Source of the DNA: Salegentibacter tibetensis | GTDB lineage: Bacteria; Bacteroidota; Bacteroidia; Flavobacteriales; Flavobacteriaceae | DNA: 64,000 nucleotides | Reading direction: 5' to 3' | Assembly: GCF_020164485.1 (NCBI RefSeq) | Contig: NZ_JAIQZA010000019.1 | Coordinates: 1-64,000 of the forward strand | Part shown: positions 10,159 to 13,840 of the stretch, one piece after another | Position numbering within the stretch: the first letter of the stretch is position 1 | How the letters are laid out: each line of letters opens with the position of its first letter | The notes under the pieces: model-generated | What the model was told of the DNA's origin: nothing | The model's input: only the letters and a program-made list of their open reading frames with translations | The model's database searches: none | Position numbers and translations under genes: made by a program

Positions 10159-10638
10159 TTAATGATCGTGGTCGTCATCGTGCTCTCCTTCAATATGTAC
10201 TTCCACAAAAGCCTGGGCTTCATTTCCAGCTGCATCGGTTACAAAAACTCCTACATCATACACTCCTTCGCTAATAGCCATTCCGTCTATTGTTTCTGGA
10301 ACTTCTATATGTTGTACAGCTGTAAAACTGGTTTGGCCAGGTTCTATCTGAAATACTTCACTATAACTCCAGGTTTTGCCTTCACTCTGCTTTAAACTTG
10401 CGTGATCGTGCCCATCAAAATTAGAATGAACATCAATTTTATAAGAGGCAAGCTCCACATTATCTGTAAAAAGAGCTTCAAAATGTAATTCCCCTCCCGG
10501 AGCTATTTCTTCATCATCATGTGGTTCCATGATGGTGATCTCTGGAGATTCTGTGTCTATTACTGTATCGTCATCACTACAGGATGCAAATAATAAACTT
10601 GCTGTAATACTGAATAAATAAACTAATCTGGTTTTCAT
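10159..10638 (-). CDS. DUF4625 lipoprotein with His/Asp-rich tail
   Basis: A 159-residue lipoprotein: signal with lipobox FASC (Cys20), then one Ig-like beta-sandwich domain of the DUF4625 type (about 30-150) and a C-terminus reading HIEGEHDDDHDH. Extra His/Asp clusters occur inside (HDDEE near 40, FDGHDHAS near 74). Such tails can bind transition metals. It is the last gene of the operon headed by a small Cys/His protein and a TonB-dependent receptor, 11 bp after the gene before it, so a surface or periplasmic metal-handling role is inferred. No enzyme motif is present. Confidence 0.75.
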   Translation of the reverse strand: MKTRLVYLFSITASLLFASCSDDDTVIDTESPEITIMEPHDDEEIAPGGELHFEALFTDNVELASYKIDVHSNFDGHDHASLKQSEGKTWSYSEVFQIEPGQTSFTAVQHIEVPETIDGMAISEGVYDVGVFVTDAAGNEAQAFVEVHIEGEHDDDHDH

Positions 10639-10649
10639 TTTTGTATGTT

Positions 10650-11018
10650 TTATGATTTAACTGTGTATTTCTTATAATTAATATTGCGAAAATCTATGGC
10701 AAAAGGCGGACCGCGAAGCTGAAAATTAAAATCGGGTTGATGTACATAATTTTCCAGGCAGCAATACTTTATAGCGGCTACTGGAGTAAAATATCTGTCT
10801 GCTCCTTCAAAGTTTTCTATTCCCAGAATTAGGGGTGAAAACCCGTTCAGATGATAGATGCAGGAATGGTATTCAAAGTTGTTTAAATTATTAAAAGTAA
10901 ACTCACTACTGTTATAAGCTTTATGTTCTACTAAAAAATAATGCATACCGCTAGCTCCCTGAGGAAATAAGAATCCAGCAAGAAAAAAAATGGCGATATG
11001 TGCTTTAAACCTCTGCAT
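10650..11018 (-). CDS. Small secreted Cys/His protein, LRGPP C-terminus
   Basis: 122 residues, not a recognised family. Residues 1-24 are a signal peptide. The mature part has a Cys/His cluster HSCIYH at 51-56, a vicinal CC at 86-87, His93 and a C-terminal LRGPP at 101-105. The gene at 13476-13796 encodes a protein of similar layout (CxxCxxH at 51-57, LRAPP at 98-102). Its ATG overlaps the stop of the TonB-dependent receptor by one base (TAATG), so the two are translationally coupled. A metal-binding partner of the receptor is the simplest inference. Confidence 0.6.
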   Translation of the reverse strand: MQRFKAHIAIFFLAGFLFPQGASGMHYFLVEHKAYNSSEFTFNNLNNFEYHSCIYHLNGFSPLILGIENFEGADRYFTPVAAIKYCCLENYVHQPDFNFQLRGPPFAIDFRNINYKKYTVKS

Positions 11019-13393
11019 TAATTAATAGGTATTTTCACCATTAACTGGATATTTCTTCCCATTTCAGGGATTTCCAGCGCCCTGTAAAAATTGGTATGGT
11101 TAAAATATTTAGTGTTGAAAATATTTGTGGCCTGTAAGTTTACAGTTGCTTTAAAATCTCCTATTTCTAGATTGGACCTAAGCCCACCGCCAAAGATTTG
11201 GTAACCCGGGGTGATCTCTTCATTTTGTGCAATCCTGTCTTGCTCAAAAGCAAAAGCGCTATTGGCAAACACTTCGGTATCTTTAAACGTGTTCGATTTT
11301 TGTAAAAAATCGTAGCCAACTTCAAAAAATCCATTAACGGGAGGTGTGAAGGGTAGGGGGAAGTTTCGCGAACGGTTGTCGGTGACTTGCCGGTTGTATA
11401 AATATTCGAATGTAAACTGGGTATGCCATTTTTCAGCAATAACCGTACTAAAATCGAATTCTATTCCGGTTAGCAAAGCTTCACTCTGAGTAAACTGATA
11501 AATTTGCCCGGCGTGCGGCAAAATTGAAAACTGCCCGCTGGGATTTAGAAATATATAATTTTCAAAATAATATAAATAAGGACTAACAGAAGCCTTAAAG
11601 GATTTTTTTCGATAATTAAGCTTCGTATCGAATACATAACCCTTTTCGGCATCCAGATTGGGATCTCCACGCTCGTGCCTGAATGAACCATGATGAATAC
11701 CATTAGCGCCTAATTCTATAGCGGTAGGCAGTCTAAAACTTGTGCCGGTATTTACAGAAAAGTCCCAATTTTTGTGGAAATTAAAAAGCGCACCGGCCAT
11801 TAGGTTTATGTTGGTAAAGTCCCTATTAGTATCGGTGCTTCGGGTAGCAAACTCGTTTGCGGTAGCTTCAGTAGTCCCTCTCCTAATTAAATACCGGTAC
11901 AAATTGTCATCATAATAACCTTCAATTTCAATCTTGCTAAAATCTAATCTTGCGCCTGCGTTTAGGTTGATATTTTTAGAAACCTGATAGGAATGAGTAG
12001 CATAAACTCCCTGGTTAATCCGTGAATATTCAGGCAATAAAAAGTTAAATCCACTTATGCTATTATCCTGAATTTGGGTTTGTGCGCCTATACCTGTAGT
12101 ATGATTTTCGTGAAAATCTTTACTGAATTTTACCTGGGCATCATAGGTGTTTAGGTCAAAATTTAATTCCAGATCTGGATTAACTTCCGGGGCTACCTGT
12201 CCGGCGTAGTGTGTATGAAACCTACTCCATTCCTGCCTGTGGTTATTTTGAAATCCTAAGATAACTTCCAGGTTGGAATTGTGAAAAAACCATTCGTTTT
12301 TATTAATGAATTTTAAATGGTTTACCCGCTGAAACGGATAGTCTATATTTCGTTGATCGCCATCATCCTGCACCCTGTTTATAGATGGAATACCGTGGGC
12401 CCCCGGGAAAAATCCAGATTTAAAATAAACATTACTGATGCTAAGTGTACCTTTATAATGTTCCCCCAGGTAACCTACCTGCCCATATAAATCGACCTCT
12501 TTGCCGGCGGTATTTTTAAGCCTTTCGTTATAGATTGGGATATTCTGACTCAAATAAACAATGTTATCTGTAGGCACCGAATAATCTCCAAATTCGCTTC
12601 CGGTTGCTTTTATTTTATAAAAAAATCGGTCGGTTCTTAGCGATAGGTTAGTAGAAGCTGCCAGGGTATTATTCACACTTTTGGTAAGGCCAATAACTTC
12701 GCCGCTAAAGCCTTCTTCGGGCACCCTGTCGTTAATAATTTTTATGACCCCGCCAATGGCATCACTCCCGTGTTCTATGGCACCAACACCTTTAATAATT
12801 TCAATGTCTTCTACAGAGAAAGCATCTATTTCCAATCCATGATCTGCACCCCATTGCTGGCCTTCCTGTTTAATGCCGTTTTCTGTAACCGCAACCCGGT
12901 TAAATCCGAGTCCGCGAATAATGGGTTTGGAGGCACCTGCCCCAATTTCTGTAGCATTAACGCCGGGTAACCTTTCCAGGGTGGTAGCTAGCGAGCCCGA
13001 AAATTGCTCCTGAAGGTATTCTTTATTGACCTTTTCAATATTTTCCGAAGATCTTCTGCGCGTACTGCCATTAAGCAAGATTGCTTCCAGGGCAGCGGTA
13101 TCTTCGGTTAGTTTAAAATTAACCACAGCATTTTCAGCCAGCGGGATTACCGTATCTAAAGTTCTAAAACCAATATATGAAACGCTGATACGATACTCAC
13201 CTTCCTTTAAATTACCAATGCGGTAATTGCCATCTTCCCCGGCTAAGACAAACCTGTTGTTTATATGAACATGAGCACCATCAAGGGCTACGTTGTGTTC
13301 ATCTACAACCTTTCCTTCCAGACTTAATTGCTGAGAGAAAGTATTTGTGGGAAAAATGGTGAAAAGCAATAAAACAAATAGGAATTGTTTCAT
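11018..13393 (-). CDS. TonB-dependent outer-membrane receptor, probably for a metal
   Basis: A 791-residue receptor that imports a substrate across the outer membrane using TonB energy. Order of parts: signal peptide (1-20), a carboxypeptidase-regulatory-like beta domain (about 24-105), the plug (about 125-220) with RLPGVNATEIG, RGLGFNR and GSDAIGGVIKI, then a 22-strand barrel ending in the aromatic-poor but typical MGRNIQLMVKIPIN. The plug segment WGADHGLEID is one I associate with the zinc/copper (ZnuD-like) receptors rather than SusC sugar receptors; no SusD gene is present. Neighbours are small Cys/His proteins and a His-rich lipoprotein, which supports metal uptake. Substrate identity is inferred. 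Confidence 0.88.
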   Translation of the reverse strand: MKQFLFVLLLFTIFPTNTFSQQLSLEGKVVDEHNVALDGAHVHINNRFVLAGEDGNYRIGNLKEGEYRISVSYIGFRTLDTVIPLAENAVVNFKLTEDTAALEAILLNGSTRRRSSENIEKVNKEYLQEQFSGSLATTLERLPGVNATEIGAGASKPIIRGLGFNRVAVTENGIKQEGQQWGADHGLEIDAFSVEDIEIIKGVGAIEHGSDAIGGVIKIINDRVPEEGFSGEVIGLTKSVNNTLAASTNLSLRTDRFFYKIKATGSEFGDYSVPTDNIVYLSQNIPIYNERLKNTAGKEVDLYGQVGYLGEHYKGTLSISNVYFKSGFFPGAHGIPSINRVQDDGDQRNIDYPFQRVNHLKFINKNEWFFHNSNLEVILGFQNNHRQEWSRFHTHYAGQVAPEVNPDLELNFDLNTYDAQVKFSKDFHENHTTGIGAQTQIQDNSISGFNFLLPEYSRINQGVYATHSYQVSKNINLNAGARLDFSKIEIEGYYDDNLYRYLIRRGTTEATANEFATRSTDTNRDFTNINLMAGALFNFHKNWDFSVNTGTSFRLPTAIELGANGIHHGSFRHERGDPNLDAEKGYVFDTKLNYRKKSFKASVSPYLYYFENYIFLNPSGQFSILPHAGQIYQFTQSEALLTGIEFDFSTVIAEKWHTQFTFEYLYNRQVTDNRSRNFPLPFTPPVNGFFEVGYDFLQKSNTFKDTEVFANSAFAFEQDRIAQNEEITPGYQIFGGGLRSNLEIGDFKATVNLQATNIFNTKYFNHTNFYRALEIPEMGRNIQLMVKIPIN

Positions 13394-13475
13394 AAAGAAA
13401 ATACTGTGATTAATTAAAAAGGGTAATTCAGTAAAAATCGATTTTAAAAAACGAGAATCTCTGAATAAATTTCTT

Positions 13476-13796
13476 TTAGCTAATCACTGCAGGAGGTGCC
13501 CTAAGGGAAAATAGTCGGTTGGGAAAAAGGTTTACGGTTTCTGCCAGAGAAATAGCATTAACCGTTTCCTTTTGAGGTGTATGAATTTTGTAAGTAAAGA
13601 TTGAAGGTGCATCTGTATTAGCAATGTGGAAATCGCACAAATCACAATCTAAAGATGCTTTAGTAAATTCTACGCTTAAAGCCTTATCGCTTTCAGAACT
13701 TACTTCATGATCAAACGCGTGCAGTGCCGGAAGAAGGCTTGCTGCTAATATCACTATTGATAAAATAGTGCTTATATGTACGCTTATTTTTTTCAT
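13476..13796 (-). CDS. Small secreted Cys/His protein, LRAPP C-terminus
   Basis: First gene of the TonB-receptor operon. The ATG at 13796 gives 106 residues with a clean signal peptide (MKKISVHISTILSIVILAAS); the longer frame from 13832 would run through the upstream asd terminator and is rejected. The mature protein has CDLCDFH at 51-57 and LRAPP at 98-102, the same layout as the gene at 10650-11018. A TAATTTTG box (13803-13810, minus strand) sits only 6 bases before the ATG, so the transcript may be nearly leaderless. Family not recognised; a metal-sensing or metal-binding job is inferred from the operon. Confidence 0.6.
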   Translation of the reverse strand: MKKISVHISTILSIVILAASLLPALHAFDHEVSSESDKALSVEFTKASLDCDLCDFHIANTDAPSIFTYKIHTPQKETVNAISLAETVNLFPNRLFSLRAPPAVIS

Positions 13797-13812
13797 GGTT
13801 TGCAAAATTAGT

Positions 13813-13840
13813 AAACCGGCTCGTAATAACAAGCCGGTTT
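13813..13840 (-). terminator. Stem-loop terminator after asd
   Basis: AAACCGGCT at 13813-13821 and AGCCGGTTT at 13832-13840 form a perfect 9-bp stem. It follows the end of asd on the minus strand; the trailing T run is short, so efficiency is uncertain. Confidence 0.55.

Follow-up and report, generated by a model that had tools for sequence, protein, structure and literature searches.

The 64,000-nucleotide stretch of Salegentibacter tibetensis DNA analysed here (the window; contig NZ_JAIQZA010000019.1, positions 1 to 64,000) carries four consecutive genes on its minus strand, which encode in this order a small protein, A, a TonB-dependent receptor, a second small protein, B, and a His/Asp-rich lipoprotein (Table 1). 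Protein A contains CDLCDFH as residues 51-57 and LRAPP as residues 98-102, after which four residues remain to the C-terminus, while B contains HSCIYH as residues 51-56 and LRGPP as residues 101-105, 17 residues before its C-terminus; the ATG of B overlaps the stop codon of the receptor by 1 base, and the receptor shows WGADHGLEID at residues 181-190. A preliminary description of this DNA had named the four genes and these residues, and all were found at those positions, including a lipoprotein ending in HDDDHDH (tail GEHDDDHDH) whose assignment to DUF4625 is firm (PF15418, E 8e-31, 107.5 bits against a cut-off of 27). That description viewed the group as a compact metal-capture unit in which the two small proteins could pass a metal to the receptor or sense it on the receptor's behalf. 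We consider it likely that A is a regulatory leader resembling CruR of Bordetella pertussis, in which a stalled ribosome sets the output of the receptor through an mRNA stem and metal relieves the arrest.

Table 1. Genes and features of the A-receptor-B-lipoprotein group, with window positions and the evidence for each
Feature	Position	Strand	Basis or remark
Candidate leader protein A (106 aa)	13476..13796	-	Open reading frame (ORF) with N-terminal hydrophobic helix
CDLC (residues 51-54), putative metal site of A	13635..13646	-	First Cys 48 residues before the Arg of RAPP
RAPP codons of A, putative ribosome arrest site	13491..13502	-	Motif published in PMC9426467 and PMC12992588
Long-range mRNA stem, 5' arm	13473..13491	-	Inside and just past the stalled-ribosome footprint
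Long-range mRNA stem, 3' arm	13402..13420	-	9-27 nt upstream of the receptor ATG
Bacteroidota-type -7 promoter element TAATTTTG	13803..13810	-	Ends 6 nt before the start of A
ZnuD-like TonB-dependent receptor (791 aa)	11018..13393	-	N-terminal carboxypeptidase-regulatory-like domain, plug, barrel
Receptor plug Asp184-His185	12839..12844	-	Aligned with ZnuD zinc ligands D99-H100 (PMC4557270)
Receptor His567	11693..11695	-	Aligned with ZnuD zinc ligand H499
Candidate leader protein B (122 aa)	10650..11018	-	ORF with N-terminal hydrophobic segment
HSCIYH, putative metal site of B	10851..10868	-	Cys 49 residues before the Arg of RGPP
RGPP codons of B, putative arrest site	10704..10715	-
DUF4625 His/Asp-rich lipoprotein, downstream partner	10159..10638	-	PF15418; sequence ends GEHDDDHDH

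As in published RAPP/RGPP arrest peptides, R(A/G)PP lies here near the end of a small leader, whose export is predicted from its N-terminal helix. At the codon level the 4.21 Mb genome contains 44 such sites on its two strands (26 of the CGN and 18 of the AGR type), and the reversed codon patterns give 118 matches. Six of the 44 are in frame within an ORF of at least 100 aa, and all six begin 7-21 residues from the C-terminus, with the next gene 11-176 nt further on; these next genes encode the ZnuD-like receptor (after A), the DUF4625 lipoprotein (after B), two other TonB receptors, an AcrB-type efflux pump and an outer-membrane efflux protein. The control motifs A(A/G)PP and K(A/G)PP gave four and two in-frame sites respectively, none of them C-terminal, among the sites assigned loci (30 of 72 and 30 of 82). 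Across 66 A-type leaders the motif is covered by 55 different 12-mers, and it is therefore conserved as peptide rather than as RNA. Its place near the C-terminus in all six proteins of this genome and in the 66 leaders would also suit a C-terminal protein signal for binding or sorting that is unrelated to the ribosome; however, 1-17 residues follow the motif, which is thus never terminal, the same motif has been shown to arrest ribosomes (PMC12992588, PMC10951233) and the adjacent mRNA pairing described below begins at the motif, so that we regard such a signal as highly improbable.

The distance between the Cys pair and the motif is rigidly kept. With CxxC sought 40-60 residues before the Arg, the first Cys precedes that Arg by 47.56 residues on average (sd 0.70, range 47-50) in the 66 A-type leaders, window included, a set that leaves out three leaders ending in KPPP with a spacing of 55 (loci L013-L015), locus L044 and leaders missed by a looser pattern; in the same 66 leaders the distance from the N-terminus to CxxC varies with an sd of 6.9. 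The linker between CxxC and RAPP is itself weakly conserved. Among 14 B proteins, 13 place a Cys at 47-50 and the remaining one has only a His there, while 28 leaders from other genomes of the order have a Cys at 47-49, some of them lacking the second Cys, a 28/28 agreement that is partly non-independent as these loci were found with a profile containing both motifs. The ribosome tunnel conceals a somewhat shorter stretch of nascent chain than the 44 residues between CxxC and RAPP in A of the window, which means that the metal site would have just emerged at the stall. CruR has 45 intervening residues (PMC9426467).

The other in-frame motifs of this genome vary the theme. A paralogous 105-aa leader (L099/L124; C144:57407-57706, minus strand) with CDLH, a Cys at 48 and the end LRGPPLAV stands before a TonB receptor that is 29% identical to that of the window. 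At C112:47334, minus strand (L094/L135), a 239-aa DUF2064 protein ending LRAPPQIYSLLIKS lies directly upstream of a TonB receptor; it looks like an enzyme with an arrest-type tail and, by eye, has no evident signal peptide. Two His-containing RGPP leaders, L093/L115 (C112:27613) and L096/L119 (C127:3484), precede the AcrB-type efflux pump and the outer-membrane efflux protein respectively, and both break the 48-residue rule; the latter has a weak DUF6769 match and a predicted stem between the stall site and the next gene. In the Mesonia loci L013, L014 and L015 the upstream CxxC protein ends NKPPPF, while B keeps RGPP.

The notion that A and B are mature periplasmic carriers or buffers, handing zinc to or from the receptor, draws on their exported-type N-termini, their Cys/His clusters and their conservation beside a zinc-type receptor. 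Against it, the alignment of 24 A members has no invariant residues other than one His, CxxC and R..PP, and AlphaFold2 predicts for A a long helix (residues 2-35) and a short one (44-48) with no further fold (mean pLDDT 68), so that the protein appears unstructured past its N-terminal helix; a carrier would, moreover, explain neither the mRNA pairing nor why the Cys pair keeps so strictly to 47-50 residues from a known arrest motif. Because conserved residues, spacing and mRNA pairing are what a regulatory nascent chain would show, we regard the carrier function as improbable. The suggestion in the preliminary description that these proteins pass on a metal accordingly finds no support, whereas its other suggestion, that they sense metal for the receptor, is probably right. 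CxxC is extended to CxxCH in many leaders, yet this His is not conserved and a haem c site was rejected. Matches to Hikeshi, p25-alpha, LIC10965 and CzcI were uninformative or too weak to lend a name to the family.

A and B are built alike, and they may share a common descent. Comparison of the two profiles with hhalign gave a probability of 97.9% over the full length and 1.4% for the middle alone. That the two have little else in common, as had been said, thus holds for the middle and fails for the N-terminal segments and the LR(A/G)PP ends, on which the profile match rests; proven homology was rejected on that ground. With regard to the features of CruR, A has CxxC (CDLC, invariant in the 24 members) whereas B has HxCxxH instead.

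The association of leader and receptor extends well beyond this genome. Relatives of the receptor were taken as the best 80 of 298 matches, all Bacteroidota by title, of which 77 have at least 450 nt of flanking sequence; in the loci retrieved, the most similar receptors come mostly from Salegentibacter (70, 80 and 84% identical), and those of Salinimicrobium reach 66 and 75%. The receptor has an upstream ORF ending in R(A/G)PP in 67 of the 77 (a count that supersedes 69/80 from an earlier, looser leader pattern), as against 2 of 190 other ORFs of at least 300 aa in the same loci, where both leaders belong to the receptor system; the pairing is thus more than chance. A DUF4625 gene follows the receptor in 73 of 75 relatives, and the compact gene unit of the preliminary description, which had also proposed a survey of LR(G/A)PP proteins beside TonB receptors, is real across Bacteroidota in respect of receptor, A-type leader and DUF4625. 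In six loci (L021, L027, L029, L030, L032 and L033) a second, diverged DUF4625-like lipoprotein gene comes after the first.

Of the 119 genomes sampled from the order, 34 have matches to a profile of 24 A proteins, 42 matches in total. Loci were drawn up for 30 of these matches, one being the window itself, with a pattern that also allowed RSPP; among the other 29, 28 have an R(A/G/S)PP leader and 27 then a TonB receptor, the exceptions are L171, where no leader was read, and L156, where no ORF was read downstream. These leaders are all different from those in the loci of the 80 receptor relatives. As the profile finds leaders before TonB receptors in other genomes, A-type leaders serve many receptors and not only ZnuD-like ones. 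In loci L155, L157-L165, L167 and L169 the leaders have CLACHF and a gap of 178-371 nt separates them from the TonB receptor, which suggests that they form a subfamily whose ligand is different and whose mRNA region is longer.

A motif that we take to be the consensus of the Bacteroidota-type -7 element, TAnnTTTG, ends at most 40 nt before the start of A in 42 of 57 leaders, whose starts were picked by script, as compared with a mean of 2.2 and a maximum of 7 in shuffles; in flavobacterial loci the distance is mostly 4-7 nt. Since the element is so near the start, A probably comes first in the group and is nearly leaderless. By its promoter element and the order of the genes A is thus, like CruR, the probable first gene before a TonB transporter, a position that the internal B does not share. 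A terminator-like hairpin, identified by folding at 13813-13840, abuts the promoter element and lies downstream of the preceding gene, which by eye looks like one for aspartate-semialdehyde dehydrogenase.

Downstream of the arrest site the mRNA itself carries a conserved feature. In the window, the segment that starts at the last RAPP codon pairs with a segment 9-27 nt ahead of the receptor ATG. From 68 leader regions, 58 with a gap of at most 140 nt and a usable start were retained, of which 52 are non-redundant and 36 have non-overlapping arms. In these 36 the mean pairing energy is -11.12 kcal/mol with the locus's own partner and -8.23 kcal/mol with swapped partners (sd 0.47), a difference reached in 0 of 5000 permutations; for a control segment upstream of the motif the figure was 382 of 5000, and for five loci of the order sample it was 79 of 5000. 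Expected arm pairs across the 52 loci number 6.87, against 3.09 (sd 0.44) in dinucleotide shuffles. Masking the footprint of a stalled ribosome raises the openness of positions -32..-1, a stretch chosen after the test of -12..+9 had failed, by 0.068 compared with 0.008 (sd 0.007) in shuffles of the same 52 loci; 30 of them have at least 4 expected arm pairs, and a change above 0.1 is seen as a gain in 15 and as a loss in 2. The long-range stem is conserved by pairing rather than by sequence.

Such a stem could act on transcription, through attenuation with Rho-dependent or intrinsic termination, instead of on translation of the receptor. CruR works by Rho-dependent termination (PMC9426467), some loci show by eye an inner hairpin followed by a T-rich stretch, and the footprint leaves the region of the start codon unopened; the conserved outer stem, on the other hand, reaches to a point just short of the receptor start, and the footprint opens it. 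We view action on transcription as a real possibility, albeit well short of an even chance.

With respect to the metal, the best sequence match of the receptor is ZnuD (E 5e-17; 8.8e-39 by profile), which also takes the first four places in the fold comparison, with 17-18% identity in the structural alignment. The closest NCBIfam model is likewise that of ZnuD (NF038289), although the score of 125.4 bits falls far under its cut-off of 950. The high-affinity zinc ligands of ZnuD are D99, H100, E340 and H499 (PMC4557270); if the chain is taken to be offset by 14, as the numbering suggests, D184-H185 and H567 of the receptor are the aligned counterparts of D99-H100 and H499, and these residues are invariant in 33 aligned receptors. 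As ZnuD is nearest by both sequence and fold and the D, H and H ligands are kept, zinc is our best guess for the metal of the A-receptor system. The same arrest mechanism could instead respond to copper, iron or haem, the redox state of the Cys pair, or export capacity. In CruR the CxxC is a copper site (PMC9426467), SecM-type peptides sense export, related CLACHF or single-Cys leaders precede other receptors, and haem, siderophore and copper (OprC) receptors come after ZnuD in the fold matches; the threefold proximity of the receptor to ZnuD by NCBIfam, sequence of known structures in the PDB and fold, the retained ligands, and the reported absence of copper-related RAPP leaders from Bacteroidota (PMC12992588) count the other way, and we hold a different input to be the less likely alternative.

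In the mechanism that we favour, A would be exported during its synthesis. When zinc, the presumed metal, is scarce, the ribosome would arrest with the third and fourth RAPP residues in the P and A sites and would cover the 5' arm of the stem, the other arm of which lies just upstream of the receptor start, so that the receptor would be expressed. Binding of metal to CxxC just outside the tunnel, 47-50 residues from the point of arrest, would then relieve the arrest by folding or pulling; the ribosome would depart, the stem close and the output of the receptor fall. From this analysis the two small proteins look like metal sensors that stall the ribosomes translating them and thereby govern the amount of the receptor, and probably that of the partner lipoprotein too. 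B is probably a second leader of the type of A, with HxCxxH and RGPP, for DUF4625, and would act on that gene by a route other than a stem. The motif with its position and spacing, the order of the genes, the conserved pairing and the similarity of the receptor are observed, while the arrest, the metal, the direction of the response and the target of B are inferred.

Several observations weigh against this interpretation. Neither A nor B passes any family cut-off, including every Pfam cut-off; DUF2946 (PF11162) matches neither of the two window proteins, and 12 of the 24 aligned A members match it weakly (best E 0.0054). No recognised R(A/G)PP leader is present in 10 of the 77 relatives, which include the three KPPP loci (L013-L015), one CxxC leader lacking the motif (L044) and one locus (L048) in which the receptor is split in two with the leader upstream of its 5' part. 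The fourth zinc ligand of ZnuD, E340, falls outside the alignment; the other three are kept. The footprint does not open the start region -12..+9 (0.007 against -0.005, sd 0.009, 58 loci), and strict sequestration of the start codon is unsupported as this stretch gains nothing. By eye, no Zur box was seen in the listed upstream sequences. For B, pairing is no stronger than with swapped partners (-3.56 against -3.42, 1668 of 5000 permutations, 13 loci), so that there is no stem, and in the 119-genome sample no clear B was found outside its own genome; a profile of 13 B proteins had matches in 15 of the genomes, and B looks restricted because, of the 14 outside matches, 12 hit the same A-type leaders and the other 2 are weak. 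That B might be a widespread gene is thus unsupported in this sample of the order. The two small proteins need not play equal parts: B occurs in 13 of the 80 relatives (12 flavobacterial loci and Geofilum, L026) and has no mRNA stem.

In its broadest form the proposal is that A (CxxC) and B (HxCxxH) are two nascent-chain metal sensors in one operon and the first zinc-responsive arrest leaders, written in a modular code used throughout Bacteroidota, where one ligand set can replace another at a constant distance of about 48 residues from R(A/G)PP and the output is determined by the mRNA stem at the stall site; we put this forward tentatively, at somewhat less than an even chance. If it is correct, Bacteroidota, including gut Bacteroides and Parabacteroides relatives, tune outer-membrane zinc uptake by arrest on a metal-binding nascent chain, possibly with no need of a dedicated DNA-binding regulator, and metal-sensing arrest extends from copper to a zinc-type system. 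A Cys or His about 48 residues before R(A/G)PP would then serve as a rule for finding sensors, and a set of unannotated small genes together with the DUF4625 gene group would be accounted for. The proposal also brings a standing question within reach of experiment, namely whether an arrest peptide is pulled free by metal-driven folding as the chain leaves the tunnel.

A metal-sensing RAPP leader before a TonB receptor is a known kind of element, and the broad class has been published for Gram-negative bacteria. Small exported RAPP/RGPP proteins precede TonB receptor genes throughout Gram-negative groups (PMC12992588, EMBO J 2025), and as that class is reported to be universal in Gram-negatives, A, which is likewise small, of exported type, with the motif near its end and a TonB receptor next, belongs to a class already in print. 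The same work reports that copper-related RAPP leaders are missing in Bacteroidota; its main text, as available, does not contain the word zinc, nor is a Cys-to-motif ruler in Bacteroidota, mRNA pairing or a two-leader operon named there. A zinc-type or doubled case, or a paper naming DUF4625, was not found in the open-access literature, and the available text of a study of zinc in Riemerella (PMC11960050) has nothing on such leaders.

Among the individual systems, ZnuD of Neisseria meningitidis (PMC4557270) resembles the receptor of the window in fold and in three of the four zinc ligands, while the latter differs in its N-terminal carboxypeptidase-like domain and its place in a leader-headed group with DUF4625. 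SecM, ApdA and ApdP (PMC10951233, PMC10987492) share with A a RAGP/RAPP arrest motif ending an exported leader, but their task is to monitor where proteins are localised, and the genes that follow them are sec/yidC genes. CutF of Rhodobacter capsulatus (DUF2946; PMC9973294) is, like A, an exported Cys leader with a Pro-rich end and a stem-loop before the next gene, in contrast to which it concerns copper and a multicopper oxidase, has CxxxC and another Pro-rich end, and lets the metal switch the next gene on, the opposite sign to that proposed here.

The closest parallel is CruR from the bp2923-bfrG-bp2921 operon of B. pertussis (DUF2946), a small exported protein in which CxxC, 45 residues and RAPP follow one another and which heads the operon of a TonB transporter (PMC9426467). 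With RAPP altered the transporter was no longer expressed, alteration of CxxC strongly impaired the response to copper, and five extra residues between the two motifs also strongly reduced this response (PMC9426467), while in vitro CruR arrests with the third and fourth RAPP residues in the P and A sites (PMC12992588). A is likewise a first gene encoding an exported-type small protein with CxxC, a C-terminal RAPP at about the same distance and a TonB receptor next, and it is predicted to be poorly structured, as reported for CruR (PMC9426467). The differences are that CruR responds to copper, whereas the receptor here is of zinc type and in Bacteroidota; that A and B fall under the DUF2946 cut-off, though the testable motif features of A fit; that CruR has a mapped Rho site, whereas the feature observed in the window is an mRNA stem near the receptor start; and that a second, RGPP leader, B, stands inside the operon. 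Our verdict is that the system represents a variant of CruR-type regulation that occurs across Bacteroidota, probably responds to zinc and is doubled in this operon.

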